A stretch of 64,000 nucleotides of DNA from assembly GCA_001630475.1 (NCBI GenBank), contig KV419464.1:1-64000 (forward strand). The letters run 5' to 3'. The DNA comes from Sistotremastrum niveocremeum HHB9708 (lineage: Eukaryota > Basidiomycota > Agaricomycetes > Sistotremastrales > Sistotremastraceae). Under the pieces are notes generated by a model. The model ran no database searches, was not told where the DNA came from, and saw only the letters and a list, made by a program, of their open reading frames with translations. Shown here one piece after another: positions 73 through 53,108 of this stretch. Within the stretch, counting starts at the first letter, position 1; each line of letters begins with the position of its first letter. The position numbers and the translations under genes were made by a program.

Positions 73-103
73 TGACCTGGTACAAAGTATAGGTTAGGGT
101 TAG

Positions 104-600
104 TGCTGGGATGGCCGAGAAGCAAGAGCTAAACGAGCTCTTTGTGGAGGTGGAAAGGAGGAGCATGTTATCCGGTGCAATTACAAGCATATAGTGTATG
201 GGACACACGGGCAATCAGGGGCCGCGAGGCAGAAACCGCTGGATTTCGCCAAAAGACATTCCAGACTGAAAAGATTGACATCACGGAAGGGCAGGTCTTC
301 TTGACGTGGCGAAGCAACGCAAGCGCATGGGATTGAGTGCCGGAGATGGCTCAATTCACGCGGCGCGAGATTGCACGGAAGGCCGCACCAATATGTTAGG
401 CGAGAACGACTGGCTTAGTTTGCGTGGGAGTTCGGGCGGGGTAGCTTGGCGCGAGCGAAATGGGTGTCGGAACAGTGGGACAACACGTGGGCGGGTGGGG
501 AGCGCAGAGACATAGAGGCATGGACAACGACGCCTGGAGTAGGTAGGCAAACTGCGAGAGAGCTGGAGAACAATGGATAAGGAGCGAGACGCCCAGGGAA
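104..600. other. Subtelomeric stretch without a recognisable gene
   Basis: Two short plus-strand open frames lie here (142-336 and 306-515). Neither has a recognisable domain, splice context or start. I see no gene I can support in this interval. Confidence 0.4.
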
Positions 601-1060
601 GGGCGACCATTGACGGAAACAGTGCGAAATAAGCAGAAACACGCCGAAACACAGCAAAACATGCCGACGCACAGGACGACACATATAGAGACATCGAGAA
701 CAGATTAAACACTGTGAAAGTCGACGAAAGATGCCAAAACAGAGCGATACACACAGCGATACATGCTGAAACAGGACAAGATGGGGCGAAACCTCGAGAA
801 CCCTGGGGCTACATGCAGAAACACGAACAAATAGGAGGAGAAGCGAGGAAAAGTGACGAAAGATCGGCGAAACCAGGCGAAACAGGGCGAAACCAGCCGA
901 CACAGAACGAAACACGAAGAACCTCGCGGACAGACGACGAAACACGCAGAAACACGCAGAAACACGCAGAAACATGACGAAACACGCAGAAACATGAAGA
1001 GACGTGAAGAGACATGACGAAACACGACGAAACACGAAGAGACGTGAAGGGACGCGGTCG
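601..1060. repeat. Subtelomeric array with a 10-bp period, T-poor plus strand
   Basis: About 45 consecutive degenerate 10-base units resemble GAAACACGCA, with variants ending GAC or GAA and a few GAGACGTGAA units. They are cleanest at 940-1045. The period holds across the whole block with only small drift of register. Because 10 is not a multiple of 3, a stop-free unit is open in every frame. This produces long minus-strand open frames rich in Phe, Val, Ser and Cys (for example 415-1215) with a 10-residue period. I treat those as by-products of the repeat, not as genes. Confidence 0.8.
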
Positions 1061-1528
1061 AAACGGGATACGAGGCTCGGCAGTGAGAGAGGTGAAATGG
1101 CAGGCTTGGGGAACTGCCTTAAACGGTAAAGAGCATACCTAAACTGGAAAGGAGAGATGGGAAATCTCATTCCAGGGAGGCACAAAAGCAGGCACAAGGG
1201 AGAAAAGGGGACCACATAAAGTGGCAGCGACGGAGACGCTCACCCAAGGGCGTCGCCCCCGGGACGCTAAGCGAGCAGAGACAGGGTAACAGGGTCTGGT
1301 CGCTGCTGCCAGTCGCTGCTCCCTGGCCGAAAACGGAGGTGATGTTGCTGAGGCTGTAGAGGGCCAGGGGGGAGGCCAAATCTCTTGAAAAGGGGTGCAA
1401 ATTGGAGGTGAGACTCTTGGGAACACACAGAGAAGGGAATGGAGTTGATATCTTGCAACGGGGATGCAGGATTAAGTGGACAAGCCATGGACCGAAGTTT
1501 TGATGTACAAAGTATATTGTAGATTGAT

Positions 1529-3587
1529 TTATATACATGATACTGTTACTAATTTCCTAGGCATTGCATGAGGAACTTCAGGAGCCCTACCACAGTGGTG
1601 ATAACTTGTTTTTATATAAAAAGCAGCACAAATAGAGTGGATCTCATGAATCTTTGGAAGCTCCACTTGTTCCTGCTCAAGAGGATAAGCCAATATTGGT
1701 GGGGAACTATGCCATCTGTGAAGTAAACTTCTGAAAGAATCTACAGCTTTCACATATGAATGCTGATCCTTGTCTGCAAGGCCTGGCTCCAAAGGGTTTT
1801 GAGCTGTGTTCAGGTGTAGTCCTCCAAGAGCCATATACACTGAGTGTAAAAATGTCTCATGACTTGCTTTCTCTTGGTATGTATAACCACCAATAGGTAC
1901 CATGATGTGATCAAGATGATCAAGTTCAAAGATGAAGTTCAAATGTATCAGCTCATGCAGTATCATTTGCATTGCTGATTGGACAAGAATGTCTCTTTTC
2001 TCCGCATTCTCCCAAACATGTGTCCCCATGAACTTGATGTCACCAAGAGAGCCCTTGAAATTCCAATCTGTGGCAACAAAAGGCCCAAGCTTCTTGCTCA
2101 TGGCATCATGAGCAAGTGCGGTCTTGGTTGAATTACTTTTGCTGATTTCTGATGATGCCCCAGACTGGGAGAGAAAGTCACGCCATTCCTGAGGCTTCAG
2201 AGCATTGATATGGTGTCCATTGGTCATCACATGGCCAAACCATGCTTCACGGAAACTGAGCCATTTCATCACATGAACATTCATTCTCTCATCAGCCAAA
2301 GCAAGGAACATGCGAGCCTGTGGTAATAAATATCCCAAGGGCTTTGTTACTAATGGATCTTCACATGGTTTTTGAGCAAAGGCATGCAATGCCCTTGTCC
2401 AAATTTCCAAGTCAGGAGGCATCAAATCGGACCTTGGTTCCTGGAACTTCAATGCATTCTGTGCATTGATTTTGGACAATTTTGGAGCACCCCTTGCATC
2501 TAGTGTAATGAATTAGTCTTGAATATAGAAAAGCCGTTCACAAAAACTTACATGGGGTGGGCCTTAATGGTTTTTTTGGCTTTGAATGCGGCATAGATAG
2601 AGTTCTTGACACTGTTTCCGGATGCAGACGACTCCATAGTTCGTTGTTGACATAATCACGAGAGAAGCGATAGCGACATGTGATGAACTCCGGATCGACC
2701 GTGCTTCCTTGATATATGATTGGATATGACCGTCGGACTTCCCCATCTAGCCATTCATCTGCCGAGAGGGTAGCGCAGGGATTGACTAGATCGACTATAG
2801 ACCGGCAGACGGAATCCTCTGCTATTTCGCTTCGAGGGCGAATATACCACACGGGAATGCCTGCGTCGCAAAGACGCTGGACAGTATGAGCAGTGTACGT
2901 AAAGACTCCAAGTAATTCCCGATTGGTTTGCGGGGGTTCCTCAAAACCGGACGATCGTACCACGCGCGCGGCATACACATCCATGTATAGATGAATACCC
3001 TGTAGCTCTAGCCAATATCTCTGGGCTTCCGTGACATGGCGCCACAGATCTCGACGGCTCATCGGAATATCGTGCAGGCGGGTGATGGTATGTTGAAGCG
3101 TCTGGAGAAGATAAACGCATGCCGATGTAAACCCTTGCTCTGTAGACTCTCGCGCTATCAATTCGCGAGTGATTTTCTCCATATGAGAGCCGCAGAGACG
3201 AAGTTGATCGCAGATGAGGCGACTGAGACGGAACATTGAGGGTGTATTAGCGTGAAGCAGAGGGGTGAGCCAAGATTCCGAAGGATCTTCGAACATCACA
3301 TCCGGAGCGGATGGATGGGCATCGTCAAAGTACACCACACCTCTACGACTCCGCGGAATACACATCAGATGCGGGAAGCCGCTGAGGTAAAGCTGAGGCC
3401 ATCGAGTGTGGTCGTCGATCCAATAGCGAGCATCTTGGCGCAGATGGACCTTTCGGGGGTATAGATGGGGATTGGGAATAAATGGCATGTTGGGGGAAGA
3501 GATACAGTTATCTTTATCGTACTCCGCGAATGAGTACACGTCGAATGCGCTGATGCTCGCATTGAGCGAAGCTCTCCAGAGTGACAT
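1529..3587 (-). CDS. Multicopy agaricomycete protein family, function unknown (two exons)
   Basis: Two exons, 3587-2552 and 2499-1529, join in frame across a 52-nt intron (2551-2500) with a perfect GTAAGT donor, a CTAAT branch sequence and a CACTAG acceptor, giving 668 residues. Landmarks fit a large family found in many copies in mushroom genomes: an N-terminal part with PRKVHLRQDARYW and PMSRRDLWR, a middle block GVFTYTAHTVQRLCDAGIPV followed by WYIRP, and a C-terminal part containing LGYLLP, WLSFREAW and EWRDFL. The assignment rests on recalled family pattern. No function is known for the family. The frame is intact, so the copy looks expressible, and its position is the closest gene to the chromosome end. 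HELIH in the second exon looks like a zinc-protease motif but lies where relatives have an unrelated E-L-x-E-L-N pattern. Confidence 0.75.
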
Positions 3588-18856: not shown

Positions 18857-19559
18857 ATGGCTGGAGAATATGGATGTGGATGTGGGTCGACGTACGTTCC
18901 TTTCTGATTCCATCGCAAGATATGGTGATAGCATTGACTGCGATTCATAGTTGTTCTTGTGCTGCTGTTCGTTATCCCGCAATCGTCTCGAACTCTTACC
19001 CGATTATTTAATTCCGTCATTATTTCTAGAGTTCCAAAGTCCAGTCACGACTGGACTTTTTCCAAAATTCCTCGTGACTGGCAACTGCGACCAGTTGCCA
19101 AATCCCAAATTTGCCATGACTGGCAACTGCAACTGCAGTTGCGGTCCGGCAACCAGTCATNNNNNNNNNNNNNNNNNNNNNNNNNNNNNNNNNNNNNNNN
19201 NNNNNNNNNNNNNNNNNNNNNNNNNNNNNNNNNNNNNNNNNNNNNNNNNNNNNNNNNNNNNNNNNNNNNNNNNNNNNNNNNNNNNNNNNNNNNNNNNNNN
19301 NNNNNNNNNNNNNNNNNNNNNNNNNNNNNNNNNNNNNNNNNNNNNNNNNNNNNNNNNNNNNNNNNNNNNNNNNNNNNNNNNNNNNNNNNNNNNNNNNNNN
19401 NNNNNNNNNNNNNNNNNNNNNNNNNNNNNNGAAACCGAGGCAACTGGCAACTGCAGTCCAGTCGCGACTTCGGTCCGGTTGCCCAATACGACCAGTCACG
19501 TGGACTGGACCTTGGAACTCTAATTATTTCCACAGGGCCAATGCAAATGCGGAACCTGA
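18857..19559 (+). CDS. Metallothionein, 24 residues, three exons
   Basis: The gene is too short to stand out as an open frame. It was found through Cys-Xaa-Cys pairs on three small exons: 18857-18891 (MAGEYGCGCGS plus part of Thr), 18951-18966 (CSCAA) and 19536-19559 (GQCKCGT and stop). The junctions are GTACGT...CATAG for intron 1 (59 nt) and GTTCGT...CCACAG for intron 2. The joined protein has six cysteines at 7, 9, 13, 15, 20 and 22, all in CxC pairs, the pattern of short fungal copper metallothioneins that buffer Cu(I) in the cytosol. Intron 2 would be 65 nt but carries a hAT-type MITE inserted 13 nt before its acceptor. The reading frame and both splice pairs are intact, so the gene could still work. 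Metal-responsive sites could not be recognised. Confidence 0.82.
19027..19522. mobile_element. hAT-type MITE inside the metallothionein intron
   Basis: The insertion is bounded by terminal inverted repeats. The left end reads TAGAGTTCCAAAGTCCAG and the right end is its complement with one difference (TAGAGTTCCAAGGTCCAG). It is flanked on both sides by the exact 8-bp duplication ATTATTTC (19019-19026 and 19523-19530). An 8-bp duplication with ends of the form YARNG is the mark of the hAT superfamily. The visible interior is full of hairpin-forming pieces built from CCAGTC, GACTGG and GGCAACTG, including the self-complementary GCAACTGCAGTTGC. No transposase is visible, so it is non-autonomous. 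The middle is an assembly gap, so the true length is unknown. The exact duplication and near-identical ends suggest a recent insertion. Confidence 0.85.
19161..19430. other. Assembly gap of 270 N
   Basis: A run of 270 undetermined bases lies in the middle of the MITE. The flanking sequence is strongly hairpin-forming and repetitive, a likely cause of the failed assembly. Open frames that appear to cross it are meaningless. Confidence 0.99.
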
Positions 19560-21504: not shown

Positions 21505-22961
21505 TCACACATCGATCACGTCCTGTTCTGCTCGCACTGGGGTGCGTTCAGGGGCGACCGACATTTCATCCACGCATGTCAACTCGTCTGCGGTCGTCAT
21601 CTGATAGAACTCTATATCTCCCACTGTAGTGAGAGGCGCATCCCGACCAGCTCCATTCGGCGTCGCCGTTTTACGCATATTGAGAATCAAACGGGATCCC
21701 TTCGCATAATTTCAGTATCGATCTAATAAATGACAAGCGAAAGACTTACAGAGAAAGAAATTACAGCGATATTCCACCTGTAGAAGCCATCAGACTTGGG
21801 TATTTGTTCCGATATCAAAACACCTACGGATAAAAAACCGCAATCAACTCTTGCATTCCGCGTGACCATGCAACCTCACACATTGCGCTCGTCACTGTTC
21901 TATCTTGTTAATAAGAAATTGGGTATCGACGGAGCTGGGCGACTTACCGAACAGCAGAATATACACCGTGATGCCATCAATCAAAATCGGAACTCTCCAA
22001 ACCGAGTCTTTTCTTTTGTGAAAGCCTTGTTGAATTGATTGGTACAGCGTCAAGAAAAATAATAACGTCTCGAAAGCGATGGAAGGGATCCTATATCTCG
22101 CCATCAATAACAACCTACGGTTGAATGGTTATTAGATCATGAAAGTCAACGTACCAATTGCCAATCCTGAAACCCGAAATTTCACTGCTTACACACGTAT
22201 ATTCTCCTCTCTCCGGAATCACAAGAACACGGCCAAACTGACGCCCTTGTGCCAATCCCAGAATAGCAGTGACCGCACCACCCACAAATTGAACGACAAA
22301 AGCAACGATGAGGAATATTGTGATCTTCCGGCTAAAATACAGTGCTCTGACTGAGAGGTATGTCAATTCATGAGTGGTGCGAATTCATAGAGACGATAGC
22401 TGACCTCGAAGAATGAGGATGATATCCGTGCCGAGAATAGCGGCTAATGCTATGCCGGATTGGTAAATCCCGATTATATGGCACCATAAATCAGAGGGTG
22501 GGGACCCAATTTTCCATCCGTTCCAGACAGGTCCCATAGAGCTGCGAGATACTAGTTTTCAGTGGTACGATGTTCGCTGTCTCAGAGAACTCACAGTGTC
22601 ATTAATAAAACGACATAGCGTTCGTAGACGTACAGAAGATGGCAGCGTGTCCACTTCGACCTGTAACAAATAAATCGAACGATCATACGACCAGATTGGT
22701 TCCTCTTACTTCCAGACATAGGTGATCTTAAGTCGGGCATCACTACACAAGACTAGAGGGATGAAGCAACAGAGACATACCTCATCGTCGAAGGAAATCA
22801 AAAGACTCCAGAACAACCACGTAAGTGCCGAAACTAAGGACGATTAGTAAGAATACTCTATTAAAATCGAAGAACACAAATCAATGCTTACTCCATCCAT
22901 AAACAGCATACTGATCTCTCTCAATCAACCCCAAGTTAAACCTATCAACAACTTCGAGCAT
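21505..22961 (-). CDS. DUF6533 seven-helix membrane protein, copy B
   Basis: Translation starts at 22961 (MLEVVDRFNLGLIERDQYAV then YGW). Spliced exons continue with SALTWLFWSLLISFDDE, SKWTRCHLLYVYERYVVLL, MGPVWNGWKIGSPPSDLWCH, GIYQSGIALAAILGTDIILI, and a loop ending in CVSSEISGFRIGNWYV. A further helix block (ARYRIPSIAFETLLFFLTLY) and ILIDGITVYILLFGK follow, then the tail GSRLILNMRK with about 55 hydrophilic residues. The order and motifs match copy D at 43-44.6 kb most closely (RCHLLYVYERY against RCNILYLYERY), so B and D are probably the nearest pair in the window. The family's role is unknown. The hydrophobic pattern predicts a plasma-membrane or endomembrane protein with about seven helices. 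Confidence 0.82.
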
Positions 22962-25471: not shown

Positions 25472-26221
25472 TCAATGCCATCCTTCAGGTCTCACTCTAC
25501 TCTCGAACGGAGGATTTCCTTCCAGTCCCGGCTTCGTTGGGGCTTTGACACTCCCTTGCACGCCTTCGCACCATTTTACTCGATCCTTCGCATAAAACTC
25601 CAGCCAAGGTCTTCCGAGACCCTCCAATCCGACTTCTTTCCATTTTGTTCTATTCGTTTCTCCATCCGCAACATCATCATCTGCATCCGTCGTATTGGAC
25701 TCGCGAATGAGAACAGAGTCCACGAGACCAAGATATGACTCGACTTCTCCCTTGGCGTCGATGCAAAAGAGCGAGCTTCCGCATGTGAGACAGAACTGGC
25801 GTGTGAGAGGATTCTTGGAAGCTTGATTTCGATCAACGTAGGATTTGAGAGTGGTAGGAGGTGAAGTGAATTCGAGTGACTATTGGAATCGTCGACCGAT
25901 CAATCGGAACGATTGATGCGTTGGTGTAGGGGAAAGGAGAAAGCCAGGACAATAAGGAACTAATCAAACAATCGAGTGTGAGTCGGAACTTACAGTTCCA
26001 AGAAAGGTCAAAGTCGTTTGGAACACTGATCCCGTAAATTTCTTGCAATTCGAGCAATGACACAACGATATCCTACGCTGTTCAAGCCATCATCCCATAG
26101 AGACATCACGAAGAACGAACAGAGCAGGAGGCTTGCTGAGATCCACATCGATCTCGAACTTGATAGAAGAGCATAAACAGGACGACCTGATCAGGAATTC
26201 AGAGTGATTTGCATTCGACAT
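25472..26221 (-). CDS. GFA/CENP-V domain protein, copy 1
   Basis: Three exons, 26221-26121, 26072-25994 and 25879-25472, give 195 residues. The GFA zinc-binding fold is visible: SSCLCSSIKFEI near the N-terminus, the double pair CHCSNCKKFTGS in exon 2, and RQFCLTCGSSLFCIDAKG in exon 3, supplying the Cys ligands. Members resemble glutathione-dependent formaldehyde-activating enzyme and CENP-V, but most fungal copies have no proven substrate. The middle exon is 79 nt, exactly as in copy 2 at 27.5 kb, and the intron phases agree, so the two are paralogues. The first donor is GTTCGT, and the second intron is long for this window (114 nt). The C-terminal 50 residues are hydrophilic. Confidence 0.83.
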
Positions 26222-27541: not shown

Positions 27542-28169
27542 ATGAGCGCAGATCGGATTACTGGCGAACAGGCTCTCTTCAAAGGAACATGTCTTTGCGG
27601 CGAGATATGTTTCGAAGTCTTATCCGAACCCGTCATGTGCGTCGATCAGCTCGATCATAATGACTTTGAAGTTGTCGATGATCAGAATTGACGATTTATT
27701 GCATCCAGAACATCAACTTGTCATTGTTCAAACTGCAAAAAATTCACGGGAACAGTGTTCACCACAAACCTTGTCTTCCCCTCCAACGTACGTCCACATC
27801 TTCTCACCATCATCATTGATCAACCACATCATCGGATAGAGTATAAAAGTAACCCGCGGAGAGTCTCAAATATCCCTCTACATCGACAAAGTCCAAGACT
27901 CGGGCAACATCCTCAAACGACATTTCTGTTCAAATTGCGGCTCACCTCTCTATAATTTCGGAGGTGATTTCGGGAAGACATGTGCTGTATTTTGGGGGGC
28001 TCTGAGTGAGGAATATGTGTCGACGTCTGAAGGGAAAGGAGAGTGGACGAAGTTTGATGAAGGGAAGTGGAGGCCGAGGGTGGAGTATTATTCGAAGGAT
28101 CGAGTTGGATGGGTCCATGGCGTCGATGGAGCTGATCAACCTAGAACAAAACCTGGAAGGGAGAGCTAA
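27542..28169 (+). CDS. GFA/CENP-V domain protein, copy 2
   Basis: Three exons, 27542-27636, 27709-27787 and 27840-28169, give 167 residues. Zinc-binding blocks match copy 1: GTCLCGEICFEV, STCHCSNCKKFTGT and RHFCSNCGSPLYNFGG. The C-terminal part contains DEGKWRPRVEYYSKDRVGWV, a typical GFA-family ending that describes the substrate-pocket side. The middle exon is 79 nt, as in copy 1. The protein is shorter than copy 1 mainly because the loop after the last Cys pair is short. The two copies face away from each other across the LENG1-like gene, which suggests an inverted duplication around it or separate insertion. Function beyond zinc binding is unknown. Confidence 0.85.
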
Positions 28170-28326: not shown

Positions 28327-29054
28327 CTACAAAGGCAAATGAAGCGGGTCAAAATATCCTGGAATACGACTATAGCAATCCGTGTCGGTCAAATCCTGGG
28401 TAAAGGATTCAGATCCGAGCATAGAATGTTGGTATGTACCGGAGATCTCGAATGCAATGTCATCCGGAATACTATGCTGGTGCTTGTTTGACATGGAGGA
28501 CGCGGCATACTCGAAACCAACAGGGTCACCGAGCAGATGTGTGGTCAAACGTGAGGATCCCAAGTCACGAGTGCTTGGATTTTCGGGACAAGTTTCGGGA
28601 TTGCTAGCAGGCGACTGACACATAGGCCTCAACGAAAGCGTGTTGGAGAGATTTTCAAGAAGAATCCGCATCTCTGACATCTCTTGAATGAGCATCCTAT
28701 GTGAACGTAATCAGTTCAGCAATCGGGTGCGTACGAAAAAACTTGAGTCATAACACCAACCGGACGAGATGCTCGTTCTTTTCGATTGCGATTCCATCTT
28801 TCCTAATGAATGTGAGAAGAAGAAACGACGAAATGTACTCCAAACACTCACGTTATCTTTTCAGTGGCTTGATAGAGAGTATCGGGGAGGGAGCGAGGAG
28901 GAGCACAGCCTCGCTCACCCAGAGCCTGTTTGAGCTCTTTGAAAGCGTGGGAACGGCTCGCTCGATACTTGTGCTCGGGCGTCTTGAAAGTCTTATCCTC
29001 GGCGGTGGCTGAGGTCATGTAGTCGTCGACCGTTTGTGGAGGTGTATATTCCAT
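28327..29054 (-). CDS. Left paralogue of the inverted-repeat pair (bHLH-like N-terminus)
   Basis: Three exons, 29054-28852, 28802-28761 and 28696-28327, give 204 residues. The first 81 residues are identical to those of the right paralogue (30191-30916) because the DNA is the same. They contain HKYRASRSHAFKELKQAL, a Pro-rich loop and SLPDTLYQATEKIT, which I read as a possible basic helix-loop-helix: basic stretch, helix, loop, helix. EKNEHLVR then runs into a heptad-like segment (MLIQEMSEMRILLENLSNTL). The third exon differs from its partner in sequence but keeps the same start phase, nearly the same length (370 against 367 nt) and the R-x-L-[IV] / S-[ED]-[MI]-R-x-L-L pattern. The C-terminal 100 residues are Ser/Pro-rich and unrelated to known domains. 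A transcription-factor role is inference only. Confidence 0.65.
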
Positions 29055-29464
29055 CAACGACGATTTGGGGGAGGATGGTTCAAGAAAGCTCAGGGAGCTC
29101 GAGAGTACTTATATGAGTTCGCGGAAAGTTGAGCTTACTGAAGGATCGTGCGTGCCCCATTATGCACGAGAGGGGAATCCGAAACGGTGAGTTAATGTGT
29201 GTATGGGTTCACCTGGATCCCAAGAAGCGCCTCGGTTCGTTACGGACTTACGGCGACCTGCGATAGACATGAGGCGGTGAGCTGGATAAGGCCTTGATTA
29301 TGTCATTACCCCACATTTTCCTGGATTAGGAAGGCAATCACAACTTACCCCGCATTTCCCTGAAGTCGAAGGCGATGATAGGTGAACATGAGGAGGCAAT
29401 CATAACTTACCCCGCGTTTTCGTGAAGTCGAGGGCGATGATAAGTCAAGTTCACTTGCCGTTTT
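28758..29464. repeat. Left arm of a 707-bp inverted repeat
   Basis: The reverse complement of this segment matches 29781-30487. Every segment compared directly (coding, intron and upstream) was identical, and the arm lengths agree to the base (707 each). The arm holds exon 2, intron 1 and exon 1 of the left paralogue and about 410 bp of upstream DNA. Its outer end is three bases inside intron 2, so identity stops at the GTT of the donor. Its inner end borders a 316-bp unrelated spacer. Confidence 0.93.
29333..29456. repeat. Two 62-bp tandem units in the left upstream region
   Basis: Two adjacent units starting at 29333 and 29395 share GGCAATCA(C/T)AACTTACCCCGC at their start and a GAAGTCGA(A/G)GGCGATGATA core. 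A weaker partial relative (CATTACCCCACATTTTCC) lies just outside at about 29304. The same two units recur in mirror image near 29789-29912. Their place upstream of both divergent start codons makes them candidate shared regulatory sites. Confidence 0.6.
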
Positions 29465-29780
29465 CGCAGACGATCCTCAACACACCAAAGTCGGCGCCCA
29501 AAACGAGACGGCAACCCGTTAATGCAAAAGGTAGCCGAAGAAACGAGACTGGCACACAGAGAAAGCGTCTCACACAGCCAGAAAGCAAAAGTTAGAATAC
29601 GCAAATCAATCAAACATACACCACTCTAGAGCCCAGGCAGAACAGGACCAAAAAAAACGAACCCAGAACAAATCAAAAGACGGCTACACATACCACCACA
29701 CCGGACCCACAGACACGTAACAAAAAAGAACGACACAACACGGAGAAGCAAAAAAAGAGGGCTCCCCACGAAAAGAAGAC
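29465..29780. other. T-poor spacer between the inverted-repeat arms
   Basis: The 316 bp between the arms are strikingly poor in T on the plus strand (under one base in ten by eye) and rich in A and C. They have no open frame with recognisable content on the plus strand. The minus-strand frames here are Leu/Phe/Val-rich because of the skew. No origin or terminal repeat is recognised. Confidence 0.7.
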
Positions 29781-30487
29781 AAAACGGCAAGTGAACTTGA
29801 CTTATCATCGCCCTCGACTTCACGAAAACGCGGGGTAAGTTATGATTGCCTCCTCATGTTCACCTATCATCGCCTTCGACTTCAGGGAAATGCGGGGTAA
29901 GTTGTGATTGCCTTCCTAATCCAGGAAAATGTGGGGTAATGACATAATCAAGGCCTTATCCAGCTCACCGCCTCATGTCTATCGCAGGTCGCCGTAAGTC
30001 CGTAACGAACCGAGGCGCTTCTTGGGATCCAGGTGAACCCATACACACATTAACTCACCGTTTCGGATTCCCCTCTCGTGCATAATGGGGCACGCACGAT
30101 CCTTCAGTAAGCTCAACTTTCCGCGAACTCATATAAGTACTCTCGAGCTCCCTGAGCTTTCTTGAACCATCCTCCCCCAAATCGTCGTTGATGGAATATA
30201 CACCTCCACAAACGGTCGACGACTACATGACCTCAGCCACCGCCGAGGATAAGACTTTCAAGACGCCCGAGCACAAGTATCGAGCGAGCCGTTCCCACGC
30301 TTTCAAAGAGCTCAAACAGGCTCTGGGTGAGCGAGGCTGTGCTCCTCCTCGCTCCCTCCCCGATACTCTCTATCAAGCCACTGAAAAGATAACGTGAGTG
30401 TTTGGAGTACATTTCGTCGTTTCTTCTTCTCACATTCATTAGGAAAGATGGAATCGCAATCGAAAAGAACGAGCATCTCGTCCGGTT
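29781..30487. repeat. Right arm of a 707-bp inverted repeat
   Basis: Mirror copy of 28758-29464. It contains about 410 bp of upstream DNA with the two 62-bp units, then exon 1, intron 1 and exon 2 of the right paralogue, and ends three bases inside intron 2 (GTT, after which left reads GGT and right reads TGT). Confidence 0.93.
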
Positions 30488-30916
30488 TGTCACTCCAACT
30501 CTTTTTTTGTAATGAATCCTCACTATTCTCGATCTCAAATTATCGATAGACAATTAGTCAAGGATGTCTCGGATATCCGAAAGCTACTCGATGCTATCTA
30601 CGCTCATCTCCTGCCAGACATGGCATCGGCCTCGGCGGTCGCCCAGTCAGACGCCCCCGAGTCTTCCGAGGCCTCCAGCGATATCGGCGTCCTGAACATT
30701 CCGAAGGACACATCGACTTTAATTGGAGGTTATCTTCCCTACAATCCTTACCCACTCGCCTTCCCAGAGAATGTAGGAACCCCTGCGTCTTTCAATTTTC
30801 GACGAGGTTGGAACGGGTCATCCTTCACCGGAAAAGGTGGACCAGATACCCAGGGCAAACATAATAGTCACGGTGGGCCCAGGTTTGATGGCCCGAGCCA
30901 TATGTCGTTCCACTGA
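30191..30916 (+). CDS. Right paralogue of the inverted-repeat pair (bHLH-like N-terminus)
   Basis: Three exons, 30191-30393, 30443-30484 and 30550-30916, give 203 residues. Residues 1-81 are identical to the left paralogue. The third exon starts in the same phase and encodes QLVKDVSDIRKLLDAIYAHL, a diverged counterpart of the left segment. A Ser/Ala-rich stretch and a Gly/Phe/His-rich end (RRGWNGSSFTGKGG) follow. The shared N-terminal half would be the putative DNA-binding and dimerising part, and the private half would give each protein its own output or partner. The two genes diverge from a common upstream region with 1.1 kb between start codons. The bHLH reading is tentative: the expected basic-region Glu is absent, and the helices were judged only from pattern. 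Confidence 0.65.
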
Positions 30917-31249: not shown

Positions 31250-32388
31250 TTATGCTTCAACAGGAACAGACAACCGGCTAACAAGCCCTTCACTAGCAAT
31301 GATCTTTTCCTTCCACTGTTCCTCAACCTCATCGAGATCCCAATTCGACGACACATATCTATTCAACCATAAGCATCAATTCCAAAAGCCTCGTAATGAA
31401 GACATACCGTCCAGAGAACCAATCATATTTCCCAGATGTGAGGCGGAGGACAGTAGCAGCGGGAAGTTGGAGTGTATCAACGAGCCACGAAGCAATCTGG
31501 GGATTCACCTCCGCTAAAGTAGTCTTGATCGATCCGGGGTGGAGAGCGATGGATTTGACATTGGGATGTTCTGCGCAAGTGGTGAGACTAAGATCGATGA
31601 GATGACGTAAGCAAAAATATCTCACCGATGTGGATGTACTCGTTCAGTCGGCCGACAGCATGCTTGGAAAGAACGTATGCGCTAGCGAAAGGAACACGGA
31701 ATTGGGCAGCGAGGGAGGAGGTAATGATGAAGTATCCCGACGTCTTGTCGAGGTGTGGTACAGCGTAACTGAGGATTCGATCAGTGAACGATCGGGGAAG
31801 AATGGAAAGAGAAGTACGTACTGAGCAACGTTGTAGACTCCACGAACATTGACTTCGACAACGTTCCACCAGACTTCGGGGTCACTCTCAGTGAAAGCTA
31901 GAATACGAGAAGTCAGACACTCGATCGAGAGATAAGATATATGAGCTCACGTTTCGACCAGTCCTCTGCCGTTCCAGCATTGGCGACGACGATATCGAGC
32001 TTTCCGAATTTCTCAGCAGCTCCTTCAATAGCACTCTTAACAGCCTTCAGATCCGTAACATCCGCAACGAAAGTAGCGATTTCAGCCTTCGGAAGTTCCT
32101 TCAGAAGATCATCGCGGACACCATCGAGAGTCGACTGCTTTCGGGAGACGAGTGCGAGTGATGCGCCGGATCGAGCGTAGAAGAGGGCGATTTCGGAACC
32201 GATGCCCCGAGAAGCACCAGTGATGAGAACTACTTTGCCAGCGTAGGTTTGGGCTTTGTAGTGAGGTGTGGGATCGATGCCAGGGTAGACGCTATAAAAA
32301 TCAAATGAGATTATTTCGAATAGGAGTTGCTGAAGAGAGCGTACTCGTTGTGATGGGTAACAGGGAGATCTTCAGGAGCAGCAGGCAT
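31250..32388 (-). CDS. Short-chain dehydrogenase/reductase, copy A
   Basis: This is a classical SDR with a Rossmann fold using NAD(P)H. The start at 32388 (MPAAPEDLPVTHHN) is followed after a short intron by VYPGIDPTPHYKAQTYAGKV and the nucleotide-binding motif LITGASRGIG. Further blocks are the NAG motif (DIVVANAGTA), the active-site Ser in YFIITSSLAAQ, and the catalytic pair in SAYVLSKHAVGRLNEY (Tyr and Lys four apart). HPNVKSIALHPGSIKTTLAE forms the substrate-loop side. The tail is YVSSNWDLDEVEEQWKEKII ending SVPVEA. About five short introns interrupt it at the same places as in copy B next door. Fungal relatives are often tied to secondary metabolism or detoxification. The substrate cannot be told. 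Confidence 0.88.
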
Positions 32389-33033: not shown

Positions 33034-34198
33034 TTACACCTCTGCCGCAGGGATTGAAAGTCGACTGACTAATGCTTTGCTCCGAATGATTTTCTCTTTC
33101 CAGTCTTTATTGACTTCATCGAGGTCCCAATTCGACGATACATATCTAAACAGCCCATTAGGTCTCAATTTCAAACGTCGTGGGTTGAAGAAGCATACCT
33201 TCCCGAAAGCCAATGCTCTCTCCCAGAAGTAAGACGTAACAAAGTCGCAGCAGGAAGTTGAAGCGAGTCAATAAGTCTCGGAGCCAAGAAAGAATTTTCA
33301 CCAGATAACGCAGTCTTAATCGCTCCAGGATGAAAAGCGAACGTCTTGATATTCGGATATTCTTCCAAAAGTACATGAATATGGTGTCAAGCGACCGAAT
33401 GAGAATGTCCGTACCGCGTGCCATATATTCGTTCAATCTGCCTACTGCGAGCTTCGAAAGGACGTAAGCACTTGCGAATGCGATACGAGATTGAGCAGTG
33501 ATTGAAGAGGTGATGACGAAATAGCCGGAGGTCTTATTCAAATGAGGAATCGCGAAGCTGAAGTATTTCGCATTAGTTATTAGTATTCCAAGAAAAACAA
33601 AGAAACATACTGTGCAACATTATAGACACCGCGAACATTGACTTCAACAGTCCTCCACCAATCCTCAGGATCATTTTCAACAAACGCTACCAAAGCGAAT
33701 CAAGTTAAATCAATCGATGTCAAACCTGATGTCAACTCACGTTTAACCCATTCATTAGCTTTCCCCGCATTAGCAACAACAACATCAATCCTCCCAAACA
33801 CTTCAACAGCTCTCTCCACAACACTCCTAACATCCTCAATACTCGTAACATCCCCAACGACCGTCACAAGCCTCCCCTTTGCCTCTTTCACATCCTTCAA
33901 AATCTCCTCCCGAACATCATCAAGCGCCTCTCGTTTCCTGGAGAAGAGAACGAGAGACGCGCCGGAACGAGCGTAGAAGAGGGCTATTTCTGATCCGATA
34001 CCACGGGATGCACCAGTTATGAGGATTGTTTTGCCTGCGTAGGATTGGGAGGTGTAGTGTGGGGAGGGGTCGATGCCTGGATAGATGCTATATATATATT
34101 CGAAGTGAGGTCAGTCGAGATGAAGAGGGTGGGGGGACGGACTCGTGGTGGAGGGTGATGGGAAGATCTTCGGAAGGCGCAGACCTAATTCTATGTAT
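33034..34198 (-). CDS. Short-chain dehydrogenase/reductase, copy B, start codon unclear
   Basis: A tandem paralogue of SDR-A with the same exon plan. Visible motifs are LITGASRGIGSE in the first long exon, VVVANAGKANEWVKR, YFVITSSITAQ and the catalytic SAYVLSKLAVGRLNEYMARG. PNIKTFAFHPGAIKTALSG follows, then a tail YVSSNWDLDEVNKDWKEKII ending SIPAAEV. The body is open throughout, and all active-site residues are present. The first exon aligns with copy A from RSAPSEDLPITLHHE, but where A has its ATG, B reads ATTAGG, and no in-frame ATG follows before the Rossmann motif. The nearest upstream ATG (34251) is separated by an (AG)12 tract and is out of frame by two bases. The gene may use another start, be polymorphic at the tract, or be newly silenced. 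Confidence 0.78.
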
Positions 34199-48838: not shown

Positions 48839-49312
48839 TTAAGGATCCCAAGTAACACTAACAGGTCCTGGTCCACTGATCCCCAAAGCCGTAAAGAGCG
48901 CAGCAGGCCCCTTGATATCCCCTCCAGAAAGGGAAGTATCAAGCTGACCGATAGTCGCAAGCGCACCTCCAGAGTTTCCAACTAAACAGCAAAATCATTA
49001 TTAATCTTCTCAGGATAATCAGGAAAGAAAAACGTACCGAAGACGCGAACGGTATGGCCGCAGGTGAAAGTTTCGAGAATGGCGGGAGCGACGGCGATCA
49101 CAGGTCCTGCACCTGCGGCACCTTCACAGGTGAATGGAGAGGGAACAGTGCTATACTGAGTCACTAATTTCAACATATCCATCAGCACTGAACTCATCGT
49201 AACAAGAAAGGAGGAACGTACAAGTGCCAGCCTCGACGATGCCTTGGCCGTTAACGACAGCGACGCCGCTAGCAAGAGCAGCGATGAAAGCAACAGCGAT
49301 CTTGGAGAACAT
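48839..49312 (-). CDS. Small secreted protein, double-psi-barrel-like, copy 1
   Basis: Three exons, 49312-49222, 49163-49038 and 48981-48839, give 119 residues. A signal peptide (MFSKIAVAFIAALASGVAVV then NGQ) precedes a mature chain of about 95 residues with two cysteines: PSPFTCEGAAGAGPVIAVAP and LETFTCGHTVRVF. The end, IKGPAALFTALG then PVSVTWDP, resembles the close of RlpA-like double-psi beta barrels (expansin, barwin, cerato-platanin neighbours), which end in a similar L-x-x-x-F-x-x-L / I-x-V-x-W pattern. The fold is inference. It is one of three paralogues within 4.3 kb. A possible TATATAA lies near 49390, about 75 bases upstream of the ATG. Confidence 0.78.
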
Positions 49313-51428
49313 TTTGAGTGAGAGGAGTGAAGTGAGTAGGAGAGAAAAGTCGAGTGACTGATACTTTTCCAGGTCTATTTCACCCTCATTATATACACTT
49401 TTCACCCCCATTGACACCCTTAACAGTTCCCATCACCGCCAAGAAAAATAATCAAAAGCAATAGCATACTGTGCCTGTCAGTCTGAAGTCCATCACCACC
49501 GCAATTGACGACCCTGAATAAATTCGCCCTCGTGATCCCTCTGAATCACCGCCAACATACTGGGCCATCGCCGACGCCTCCAACATCAAATCAATATATT
49601 TCGCCTAATTCGCTGTCTATACTCCACATCCGATTTGTTTTATTGCTTTGTCTTTTTTGTCCGGACTCGGAGCTGACAGGCAGTGTCATCAATATCGTCA
49701 GGTCTGCGACGAGCAACATGCTGATCGACTTCAACCACACGCTCCTCGATTCTCGTCCCTCGGCGAACTTCGAAGGTCCGGACTCGCGCACTGGTTTATG
49801 GAATATATCAATATACTCTCACTTTTCATGCGAGCGCTAGAGCCATCGTGACCGTTCGATGCCGACTAGGACAACGGATCCTTTACTCGCTTTCCTCTCG
49901 CCTCGCATACCACTCGAATAACCGCAATGATTTCACAATTCCACATCCGTTCGCCGAGTCGGTTATTATTATCAATTTATAGAGAAACCCCAATGGCGCA
50001 ATCTCCCTCGCCAAACACTTGATTTTCTATCGCTAGCGCTTCTCCCGACTGAGGCTAGGTCTGACTTCTGAAACGCGAGACTCGCCTAATTTGGTTAGTC
50101 CGCGCTTTGTGGGCGTCGAATAGCTTAATTATTATTAATAGCTGGGGTTGGGCGCTTTTCGTGAGTTTCACAGACGCAACGCTACGCTACCGTATCTGAT
50201 AATCTGATCAAGTAATCTTGTCGGAGGATTTTTGATTCCGTCTCGGGAAGCACGTTGGTAACGTCCGACATGGTGGGGACGTCATTCGTTCGGTCAATTC
50301 AGGCCTTGGAATTCAGAATGGATCGACGTACGTGCGTTCAGGTTCTTTATTCTCGTGAGAACGTTAACGGAATGTAGCATATCGAGCAGTCGAGCGATCC
50401 TTCCAAGGTCAAAGCAACATGTTCATGAATTCCTGAACAAGAACCCTCAAAAATGGTCGAATCATACCATAAAGTCACAATCAGGGTGCACTGGTGCACC
50501 AACCGAAAAACGAAAACTCAACAAGCACACTCATTCTCAACACGCCGTCCCCGTCGAACCAATAAGACTCATCCATGCACCTCTCACCCAAACCGAAAGC
50601 CGAAAAACATACGGTCCGATTCGGGCATAGGACGATCATGAGACTTCCATCAGCCCGAAAAGTGGAGCTCGCATTGTCCTTCGCATACACGTACCGAGGG
50701 TGCCGTACAAACGGAAGCATTTACAATGTTGAAATTCCCAAATATAGAAGGAGTGATCGCTGCTATGACCGTCGGAGACGTCGACGCGGGCTCCTTGACC
50801 TCGGCTATCAATTTGAGTACCCTAATTGGTCCCTAAAGCGACTTTGTTTCTCCGATGTTTGTGCGAGGGGGTTGGGGAGCATTGTTGTCAGGGTATGTTC
50901 AGGGTTCTTTTGCTGCCGCTGGTGGGTATCTTCGGGGAGGTTTTGTGATTTTGAGTTGTAAGAATGTTCATTCTGCTGACTTTATGTCCTCTAGATGACG
51001 AGTACTCCGTCTCGGTGAAAAGAAATGCTTCGGATCCGAGATCTCTCAGGTCCTTGCTTTGTTCCGAATTGTTTGAACAATGTGTGCCTGGCGAAAGGAA
51101 TAATTTTTCTCACGGAAGCGGATGAAGCGTTGGGTCGTTTATGGTCATGGGACTCGTGTCTTGTCTTCCTTATTGATAGAAGCTTGATGGAAGCTTGTCA
51201 GATATGGATCGCTACTGGCAGCGACCCTGACGGGGCTAGGACCACAATGCAAGCAATCTAACATTGGACGCGCGCTCAGGCCATACACGGAGAGGAGATA
51301 TGCAACCATTTCGACAGCGGGGTGATTGGCAATGCGAACGTGCTAGAATATCAAAAATGGCGACTTTGCATGACAGTGGCGGGACCTCGGCGAGAAAATT
51401 GTCTGGCCGATTAGGAGGACGCAGTTGG
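49313..51428. other. Two-kilobase stretch with a possible gene relic
   Basis: No intact gene was recognised. Between 50.35 and 51.26 kb, protein-like pieces occur in several plus-strand frames, for example IEGVIAAMTVGDVDAGSLTS near 50.75 kb and GGWGALLSGYVQGSFAAAGG near 50.87 kb. They could be exons of an unrecognised gene or a decayed one. I could not assign a family or a consistent splice path. Confidence 0.3.
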
Positions 51429-51436: not shown

Positions 51437-51503
51437 GAGGAGGAAATTGGAGTGGAGAGGAGCATCAGTCACTTTAACGACTTTTCTCTCTCAAGTCTTC
51501 ACA

Positions 51504-51970
51504 ATGTTATCCAAGCTCGCTATTGCTTTCATCGCTCTCGCCAGTGGCGTCGCAGTCAATGCCCAAGGCATCGTCGAATCGGGCACTTGTGAGTTTCTAT
51601 CGCAGTTATTCTATAGAATCGCTCATCATATCTATTAATATAGTGACCCAATACAGCACTGTCCCCTCTCCATTCACTTGTGAGGGAGCGGCCGGCGCAG
51701 GCCCCGTCATCGCCGTCTCTCCCGCTCTGCTCGAGACATTCACTTGCGGACATACCGTCCGCGTTTTCTGTAAGTCTCATTGCTTCTCCAATGTATCATA
51801 TAATAATTCATGCACCAGTCGGAACCGGGGCGTCCACTACGAGCTCTCTCGCCACCATTGGCCAGCTTGATACCACTCTTACCGGAGGAAATATCAAAGG
51901 CCCTGCTGCGCTCTTCACTGCTCTTGGAACTAGCGGCCCTGGCCCTATCTCTGTTACTTGGGATCCTTAG
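51504..51970 (+). CDS. Small secreted protein, double-psi-barrel-like, copy 2
   Basis: Three exons, 51504-51588, 51644-51769 and 51819-51970, give 120 residues. The signal peptide is MLSKLAIAFIALASGVAVNA. The mature part repeats copy 1 closely: PSPFTCEGAAGAGPVIAVSP, ETFTCGHTVRVF, SLATIGQLDTTLTGGNIKGP and the end PISVTWDP. Exon 2 is 126 nt, as in copy 1. It lies on the opposite strand from copy 1, about 2.2 kb away. A secreted role outside the hypha (matrix, host or prey interaction) is inferred from size and signal peptide only. Confidence 0.8.
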
Positions 51971-52558: not shown

Positions 52559-52623
52559 AAGAGCCAAAGCGCACTGAGAGAGCATCAGTCACTCACTCGA
52601 CTACTCTTGTCTCTTACTCAAAT

Positions 52624-53108
52624 ATGTTCTCCAAACTCGCCGTCGCTTTCATTGCTGCCCTCGCAAGCAATCTCGCTGTCGTGAACGCCCAAGGCGGGAT
52701 AGTCGAAGTCGGCACCCGTACGTTTCGTCTCCGCTTTCATCGTTGTCTGATGTTGACATGCATTAACGGTTTGTACTAGTCACTGAATTTAATCCCGAGA
52801 TCTTCACTTGCGAATCTGCCGCCGGCACGGGACCCAACATAATTGCTGTATCTCCTGCGCTCCTCCAAGAATTCACCTGTGGACATAGTGTCCGTGTCAT
52901 CTGTAAGCTCGCTTCCATATCACTTGCCCAAAGATGTCGAATTTTTTTGGATACAGTCGGTACTGGGTCGTCGGTAGTGACGACTATCGCGGTCATTGGT
53001 GCCCTTGACACTAGCCTAACTGGGGGAAACATTTTCGGAACGCCTGGTGTATTCAGCTCTCTTGGGCTCACCCCTCCTGGCCCCTTTTCTATTACTTGGG
53101 AACCTTAG
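52624..53108 (+). CDS. Small secreted protein, double-psi-barrel-like, copy 3
   Basis: Three exons, 52624-52717, 52780-52902 and 52957-53108, give 122 residues. The signal peptide is MFSKLAVAFIAALASNLAVV. It is more diverged than copies 1 and 2: FNPEIFTCESAAGTGPNIIA, LLQEFTCGHSVRVI, IAVIGALDTSLTGGNIFGTP and the end PFSITWEP. Both cysteines and the Thr-Gly-Gly-Asn turn are kept. It is tandem with copy 2, with about 650 bp between. Exon phases and lengths (exon 3 is 152 nt in copies 2 and 3) show common origin. Confidence 0.78.

Follow-up and report, generated by a model that had tools for sequence, protein, structure and literature searches.

Two facing genes, here called L and R, lie head to head in the window (the whole stretch of 64,000 nucleotides that was analysed). 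The locus raises the question of how their front halves can be the same letter for letter while their third exons differ as old paralogues do, and which process drew the boundary between the two parts.

An exact inverted repeat at the front of two facing genes

The arms of the locus were compared base by base, and the left arm matched the reverse complement of the right arm at 707 of 707 positions. The positions that an earlier note had assigned to the arms and genes were correct. The arms are as follows.

28758..29464, minus strand: left arm of the exact 707-bp inverted repeat (base comparison and inverted-repeat scan)
29781..30487, plus strand: right arm of the exact 707-bp inverted repeat (base comparison and inverted-repeat scan)

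Read outward from the spacer, each arm contained 410 nt of upstream and leader sequence, 203 coding nucleotides of exon 1, the 49 nt of intron 1, the 42 nt of exon 2 and 3 nt of intron 2. The end of identity just inside intron 2, which the earlier note had described, was recovered exactly, with exon 2 of gene R ending at 30484 and identity ending at 30487. The 410 bp of upstream and leader sequence, exon 1, intron 1 and exon 2 were letter-identical between L and R; hence, the noncoding and synonymous sites were homogenised along with the coding ones, as intron 1, the leader and the upstream region all lacked a single difference. The 95% upper bound on the divergence between the 707-bp arms was 0.42%. 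Ungapped extension of the arms to 710 nt brought in one mismatch (99.859% of 710). Apart from the arms, exact inverted repeats in the whole 64-kb window reached 18 nt at most.

The self-comparison of the window gave the background for this value. The other duplicates of at least 100 nt were 66.6-70.6% identical. They included 31298-32384 with 33085-34182 (66.6%) and 48840-49396 with 51969-51428 (69.6%, inverted). The remaining pairs were 49215-49410 with 52724-52535 (70.6%, inverted), 22403-22537 with 43602-43468 (70.4%, inverted), 51455-51597 with 52576-52726 (69.0%) and 51673-51774 with 52803-52907 (70.5%). Four duplicated pieces shorter than 100 nt were 73-86% identical, and one of them was located inside the near-telomeric short repeats. 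The L/R pair is thus the exception among the duplicates of the window.

Gene models

The exon models of both genes were open and reached stop codons at the ends of their spans, giving predicted proteins of 204 amino acids (L) and 203 amino acids (R). The splice junctions are predictions based on frame, phase and GT..AG borders. The parts of the two genes are given below from left to right.

28327..28696, minus strand: gene L exon 3, 370 nt, coiled-coil start and acidic, Ser/Pro-rich tail (in-frame translation to the stop)
28697..28760, minus strand: gene L intron 2, 64 nt, matching the R intron for 3 nt and diverged past that point (alignment versus shuffles)
28761..28802, minus strand: gene L exon 2, 42 nt, the same as R exon 2 (sequence identity)
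28803..28851, minus strand: gene L intron 1, 49 nt, the same as R intron 1 (sequence identity)
28852..29054, minus strand: gene L exon 1, coding part, 203 nt (translation)
29055..29464, minus strand: gene L leader and upstream region, 410 nt (arm identity)
29781..30190, plus strand: gene R upstream region and leader, 410 nt (arm identity)
30191..30393, plus strand: gene R exon 1, coding part, 203 nt (translation)
30394..30442, plus strand: gene R intron 1, 49 nt (sequence identity)
30443..30484, plus strand: gene R exon 2, 42 nt (translation)
30485..30549, plus strand: gene R intron 2, 65 nt, identical to L up to 30487 (alignment)
30550..30916, plus strand: gene R exon 3, 367 nt, coiled-coil start and Gly/Ser/Pro-rich tail (translation)

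The two proteins had their first 81 residues in common, together with an Arg whose codon straddles intron 2. The third exons were in the same phase and of nearly equal length (370 nt in L and 367 nt in R), as the earlier note had reported. Its description of two proteins with the same upstream DNA and N-terminus and with different C-terminal tails was supported.

Old third exons beside identical front halves

The earlier note had held that the two genes differ completely at the DNA level past the arms. This was an overstatement, since 24 of the first 48 nucleotides of exon 3 were identical in register. The identities by codon position over this segment were 9/16, 13/16 and, at third positions, 2/16, and such a split indicates old divergence under protein constraint. 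For the first 64 nt of exon 3, the score of the DNA alignment was reached by 4/1000 shuffles (global) and 12/1000 shuffles (local); for the entire exon, the corresponding values were 62/1000 and 29/1000. The score of the exon 3 protein alignment was reached by 0/5000 shuffles (global) and 13/5000 shuffles (local).

The similarity was concentrated at the start of the exon. The heptad-like resemblance that the earlier note had recognised there held for residues 83-102, for which none of the 20,000 shuffles reached the score even when hydrophobic and polar positions were held in place; for residues 83-98, five of 20,000 such position-keeping shuffles did so. The tails past the coil showed no similarity between L and R above shuffles (1911/5000 and 2047/5000), and the same was true of the 3' flanks (625/1000 and 951/1000). 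For intron 2, the local score was reached by 292/1000 shuffles and the global score by 14/1000. Judged from these alignments, the third exons are homologous but anciently diverged, and the synonymous sites of the conserved coil are saturated, with agreement at 2/16 third positions.

Character of the proteins

The coil at the start of exon 3 was regular in both proteins. Heptad positions 84, 88, 91, 95, 98 and 102 were occupied by L/M/M/L/L/L in one protein and L/V/I/L/I/L in the other, all of which are hydrophobic, and an acidic residue at 87 and an Arg at 92 were conserved between L and R. The single-sequence structure model of R had a mean pLDDT of 48.8, with helices at residues 32-47, 58-69 and 78-105 and an unstructured tail. 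In this low-confidence model, a break at residues 70-77 separated helix 2 from the coil. A Foldseek search with the poor R model returned no matches. No Pfam family was matched by L or R at E up to 10, a search in which the HMMER filters drop most weak matches, and the best match of the PDB sequence search had an E of 0.094, which is not meaningful. Searches of IMG/VR and the prokaryote genome collection gave no relatives, as expected for a eukaryote gene.

The shared N-terminal part had been called bHLH-like in the earlier note. A profile built from six PDB sequences of bHLH proteins scored both L and R at 3.7 bits, and the aligned part covered residues 27-46 only. Of 3000 shuffles of residues 1-105, 1679 returned a score, and 7 of the 3000 scored as high as L and R; the best score among window ORFs of at least 110 amino acids was 2.7. 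The bHLH-like features were the segment E27-H-K-Y-R31, the hydrophobic residues at 38, 41 and 45, and LYQATEKI compared with ILDKATEYI in MAX; the choice of positions that mark a bHLH follows general knowledge of this fold. In the PDB sequences of bHLH and bHLH-zip proteins (SREBP, MAX, TYE7 and HMS1), E-x-x-Y-R likewise stands ahead of the first helix with hydrophobic residues in register. The second helix of L and R has ATEKI where MAX has ATEYI, and a coiled coil comes afterwards in both. In contrast to these proteins, L and R had no Pfam match, a profile score of 3.7 bits and the break between helix 2 and the coil in the low-confidence model, whereas bHLH-zip proteins run from helix 2 into the coil without a break.

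The bHLH label drew weak support from the profile and its shuffles, and no Pfam family backed it. Hence, the proteins are better called probably helical and coiled-coil, with possible bHLH ancestry. Each has a module at its N-terminus that is probably helical, then a coiled coil, and finally a diverged tail that is probably disordered. A role as transcription regulators would be a guess from the weak bHLH resemblance. The claim of different output domains was an overstatement. The tails after the coil do differ, whereas the coil at the start of exon 3 is conserved and the tail in the low-confidence R model has no structure.

Upstream boxes, spacer and surroundings

Three boxes close to CTTACCCCRCNTTTYC were found in each arm, at 29305-29320, 29344-29359 and 29406-29421 in L and at 29824-29839, 29886-29901 and 29925-29940 in R. 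With up to two mismatches, CTTACCCCRCNTTTYC had six matches in the window, all of them in the two arms, compared with a shuffle mean of 0.32. The pattern was drawn from the arms themselves, and it is thus a local repeat and not a known site. The three repeats of each arm contain GYGGGG cores, which resemble the Mig1/CreA sites (SYGGGG) of carbon repression. Among 1272 sliding 410-bp windows, the arms included, 17 had a SYGGGG count equal to or above that of the arms, and no enrichment was seen for the looser form SYGGRG (250/1272 windows). The cores give a hint that the arms may carry carbon-repression boxes. Because their upstream DNA is identical, L and R are likely to be equally regulated, as a prediction from these letters.

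The arms are separated by the following segment.

29465..29780, no strand: spacer, 316 bp, no second copy in the window, T-depleted, A141 C91 G61 T23 (composition and self-comparison)

One other stretch in the window, the near-telomeric 431-1316, was as poor in one of A and T. The 3-mer profile of the spacer was closest to that of near-telomere DNA (windows starting at 501-951, r up to 0.76), followed by minus-strand windows at 50751-50901 (r up to 0.71, at 50801). An alignment of the spacer with positions 73-3000 did not rise above shuffles (217/300 reached the score, and 188/300 on the other strand), and homology between them was rejected. The composition of the spacer is a hint at an origin as filler DNA, and such an origin would speak for one-ended repair.

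The window starts at 1-72 with CTAACC/CTAACCG repeats, the C-rich strand being leftmost. They are probably the chromosome end, with an irregular TTAGG-type telomere repeat, and on this interpretation the L/R locus lies approximately 28 kb from the chromosome end. The adjoining stretch 431-1316 is strongly T-depleted and has GAAACACG-like short tandem repeats at 909-1053. At 19029-19520, an inverted-repeat element was recognised by eye; both its ends begin with GAGTTCCAA when read inwards, and a run of N occupies 19161-19430 in its middle. It resembles a non-autonomous DNA transposon, and the run of N in it would be an assembly gap or a masked stretch.

Several gene families were also observed. 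Five scattered, multi-piece relatives of one family with a WNGW-type start were located at about 12.5-13.0, 21.8-22.8, 40.3-41.2, 43.1-44.2 and 57.1-58.1 kb, and the three of its ORFs that were scanned had no Pfam match at E up to 0.1. Three copies of an unnamed gene, two in tandem and one inverted, were 69-71% identical at 48.8-53.1 kb, and a tandem pair of short-chain dehydrogenase genes at 31.2-34.2 kb was 67% identical across 1.1 kb. A divergent related pair, perhaps GFA-like, at 25475-26089 (minus strand) and 27692-28166 (plus strand) surrounded an ORF with a weak CIR N-terminal match. The two Pfam matches (E 0.023 and 0.016) were below the curated cut-offs, the left gene being the one of the pair that was scanned. 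A ribosomal eL8 fragment had 8esq as its nearest PDB match. The shortness of the introns and the kinds of genes present point to a fungus, perhaps a basidiomycete. Rfam at the gathering threshold gave no matches in the window, and ARAGORN with the bacterial code gave no tRNAs.

Origin of the identical front halves

The reading that we prefer, at a probability of roughly 0.68, is that L and R are old head-to-head paralogues, that the front half of one was recently overwritten by that of the other through interlocus gene conversion, and that the two genes are co-expressed and their products dimerise through the coil. The earlier proposal of old paralogues with a recently homogenised 5' half is favoured by arms that agree at all 707 positions, set against saturated synonymous sites in the coil of exon 3. 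As conversion would leave them, the 707 identical bp lie beside a homologous exon 3 in which 2/16 third positions were alike. In the proposed course of events, a break in one gene would have been repaired from the facing paralogue, with pairing in the conserved exon 2, and the repair would have copied outward through exon 1 and then the promoter. The tract would have stopped at the splice donor, where intron 2 was already too diverged for pairing. Since exon 2 could pair and intron 2 had diverged, the end of the tract at the splice donor needs no special cause. Both genes would then be expressed together from identical promoters, and their products may form homodimers and heterodimers via the coil, mixing partners with the same front and different tails. 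Dimerisation through the coil is suggested by the six heptad positions, all hydrophobic in both proteins, and by the retained acidic residue at 87 and Arg at 92.

The length of the tract counts against conversion. The 707 bp are longer than is usual for ectopic conversion: tracts in yeast have means of about 50 to several hundred bp (PMC3924818), and Caenorhabditis tracts are mostly 50-200 nt, with up to 2,958 bp tabulated for C. elegans (PMC3966223). Precedents have been described for conversion between adjacent inverted paralogues, for tracts with introns and for conversion beside a 3' end that is not shared (PMC3966223). The GC3 values were 0.57 for the common exons, 0.56 for R exon 3 and 0.50 for L exon 3, a sample too small to give the direction of copying.

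The best of the alternatives, still an unlikely one, is a single recent inverted duplication, in which the promoter and exons 1-2 were copied by template switch or break repair beside the exon 3 of an old relative, with filler in between and no continuing homogenisation. It would account for the sharpness of both identity edges and for a spacer that has no copy in the window and an odd, near-telomere-like composition, as filler DNA might have. In one genome, a recent inverted copy of the cassette would look like conversion, and an incomplete recent duplication can mimic it (PMC3966223). However, the spacer aligned with 73-3000 no better than shuffles did. Moreover, the third exon of the recipient is a homologue that keeps the phase and the start of the coil, and a complete gene, front included, therefore probably occupied this place before; in-register replacement of this kind is typical of conversion and rare for random insertion.

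An extension of gene conversion, which we regard as doubtful, is a self-homogenising module. Selection would favour repeated copying of the promoter and N-terminal part, the partners would stay interchangeable and equally expressed, and the diverged intron 2 would act as a barrier behind which the coil and tails evolve separate outputs.

Assembly collapse, with slightly differing arms given one consensus twice or with a chimeric inverted arrangement, is improbable. The run of N within another inverted repeat indicates that repeats may have been hard to assemble here, or that the stretch was masked. However, each arm joins in frame a different, homologous exon 3, which a random chimera would not do, and a collapse would still require nearly identical arms, so that the contrast with exon 3 stands.

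The earlier note had also likened the layout to mating-type or recognition loci. That the pair is a mating-type or self-recognition locus, joining a common module to diversifying specificity parts, is very improbable. A divergent gene pair is indeed present, as in basidiomycete HD loci (PMC12510652), but neither L nor R has a homeodomain or any other Pfam domain. Among 30 other window ORFs, a part of the total, no pheromone-receptor or homeodomain family was matched at E up to 0.1. Furthermore, mating-type differences in basidiomycete HD loci lie mainly in the N-terminal regions (PMC12510652), and the identical N-terminus and diverged C-terminus of L and R are the reverse layout. The analogy is not supported and should be dropped.

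Least probable of all is extreme purifying selection that kept the arms identical with no copying: nothing beyond the arm identity itself speaks for it, and selection alone is a poor explanation when intron 1, the leader, the upstream region and synonymous sites are equally identical and the change from zero differences at all arm sites to saturated synonymous sites in the coil takes place within a few codons.

Comparison with known systems

The closest layouts come from Caenorhabditis elegans. The genes fog-2 and ftr-1 are adjacent paralogues that have common upstream DNA (about 170 bp), 5' exons and introns and a differing 3' end, with conversion in the common part (PMC3966223). Unlike L and R, which are inverted and 100% identical in the common part, they are in tandem and their coding part is 82% identical; moreover, the fog-2 3' end was recruited and has no homology (PMC3966223), whereas the third exons of L and R are homologous and both retain a coiled coil. 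The hsp16-1/hsp16-48 pair has 100% identical inverted modules with 416 bp of unique sequence between them and fully diverged flanks, for which the authors favoured conversion (PMC3966223). Those modules hold whole genes, whereas the identity of L and R ends within the genes at a splice donor.

In fungi, the Saccharomyces flip/flop genes YNL018C and YNL034W are nearly identical inverted paralogues for which conversion has been proposed, being homogenised within strains and species, and the reason for their homogenisation is unknown (PMC9731477). Their repeats are 4.2 kb long, 24 kb apart and hold whole genes (PMC9731477), whereas the 707-bp arms of L and R are 316 bp apart and end inside genes. 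A crossover between the L/R arms would flip only the 316-bp spacer. The GOT1 paralogues of Tigriopus are a mosaic of high and low divergence under conversion (PMC3728101), and ectopic conversion between paralogues has been described in the fungus Aspergillus (PMC12844118). The available parts of these two papers describe no head-to-head pair with a common promoter and front up to a splice donor (PMC3728101, PMC12844118). In the portions of the literature covered, no partial 5' conversion in a head-to-head fungal pair was identified, which is no proof of its absence from print. The literature matches listed for basidiomycete bHLH relatives and telomere repeats made no mention of this gene or species.

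Meaning of the locus

The L/R pair is a neat example of a known process, the partial recent homogenisation of head-to-head paralogues. It is a very clean case of two ages within a single gene, the border between them falling at a splice donor. Its wider meaning is modest for now. If the copying is recurrent, the pair would show how an intron can divide a concerted segment from one that is free to diverge, and it would caution against dating duplications by the front half of genes of this type, where the result is misleading.
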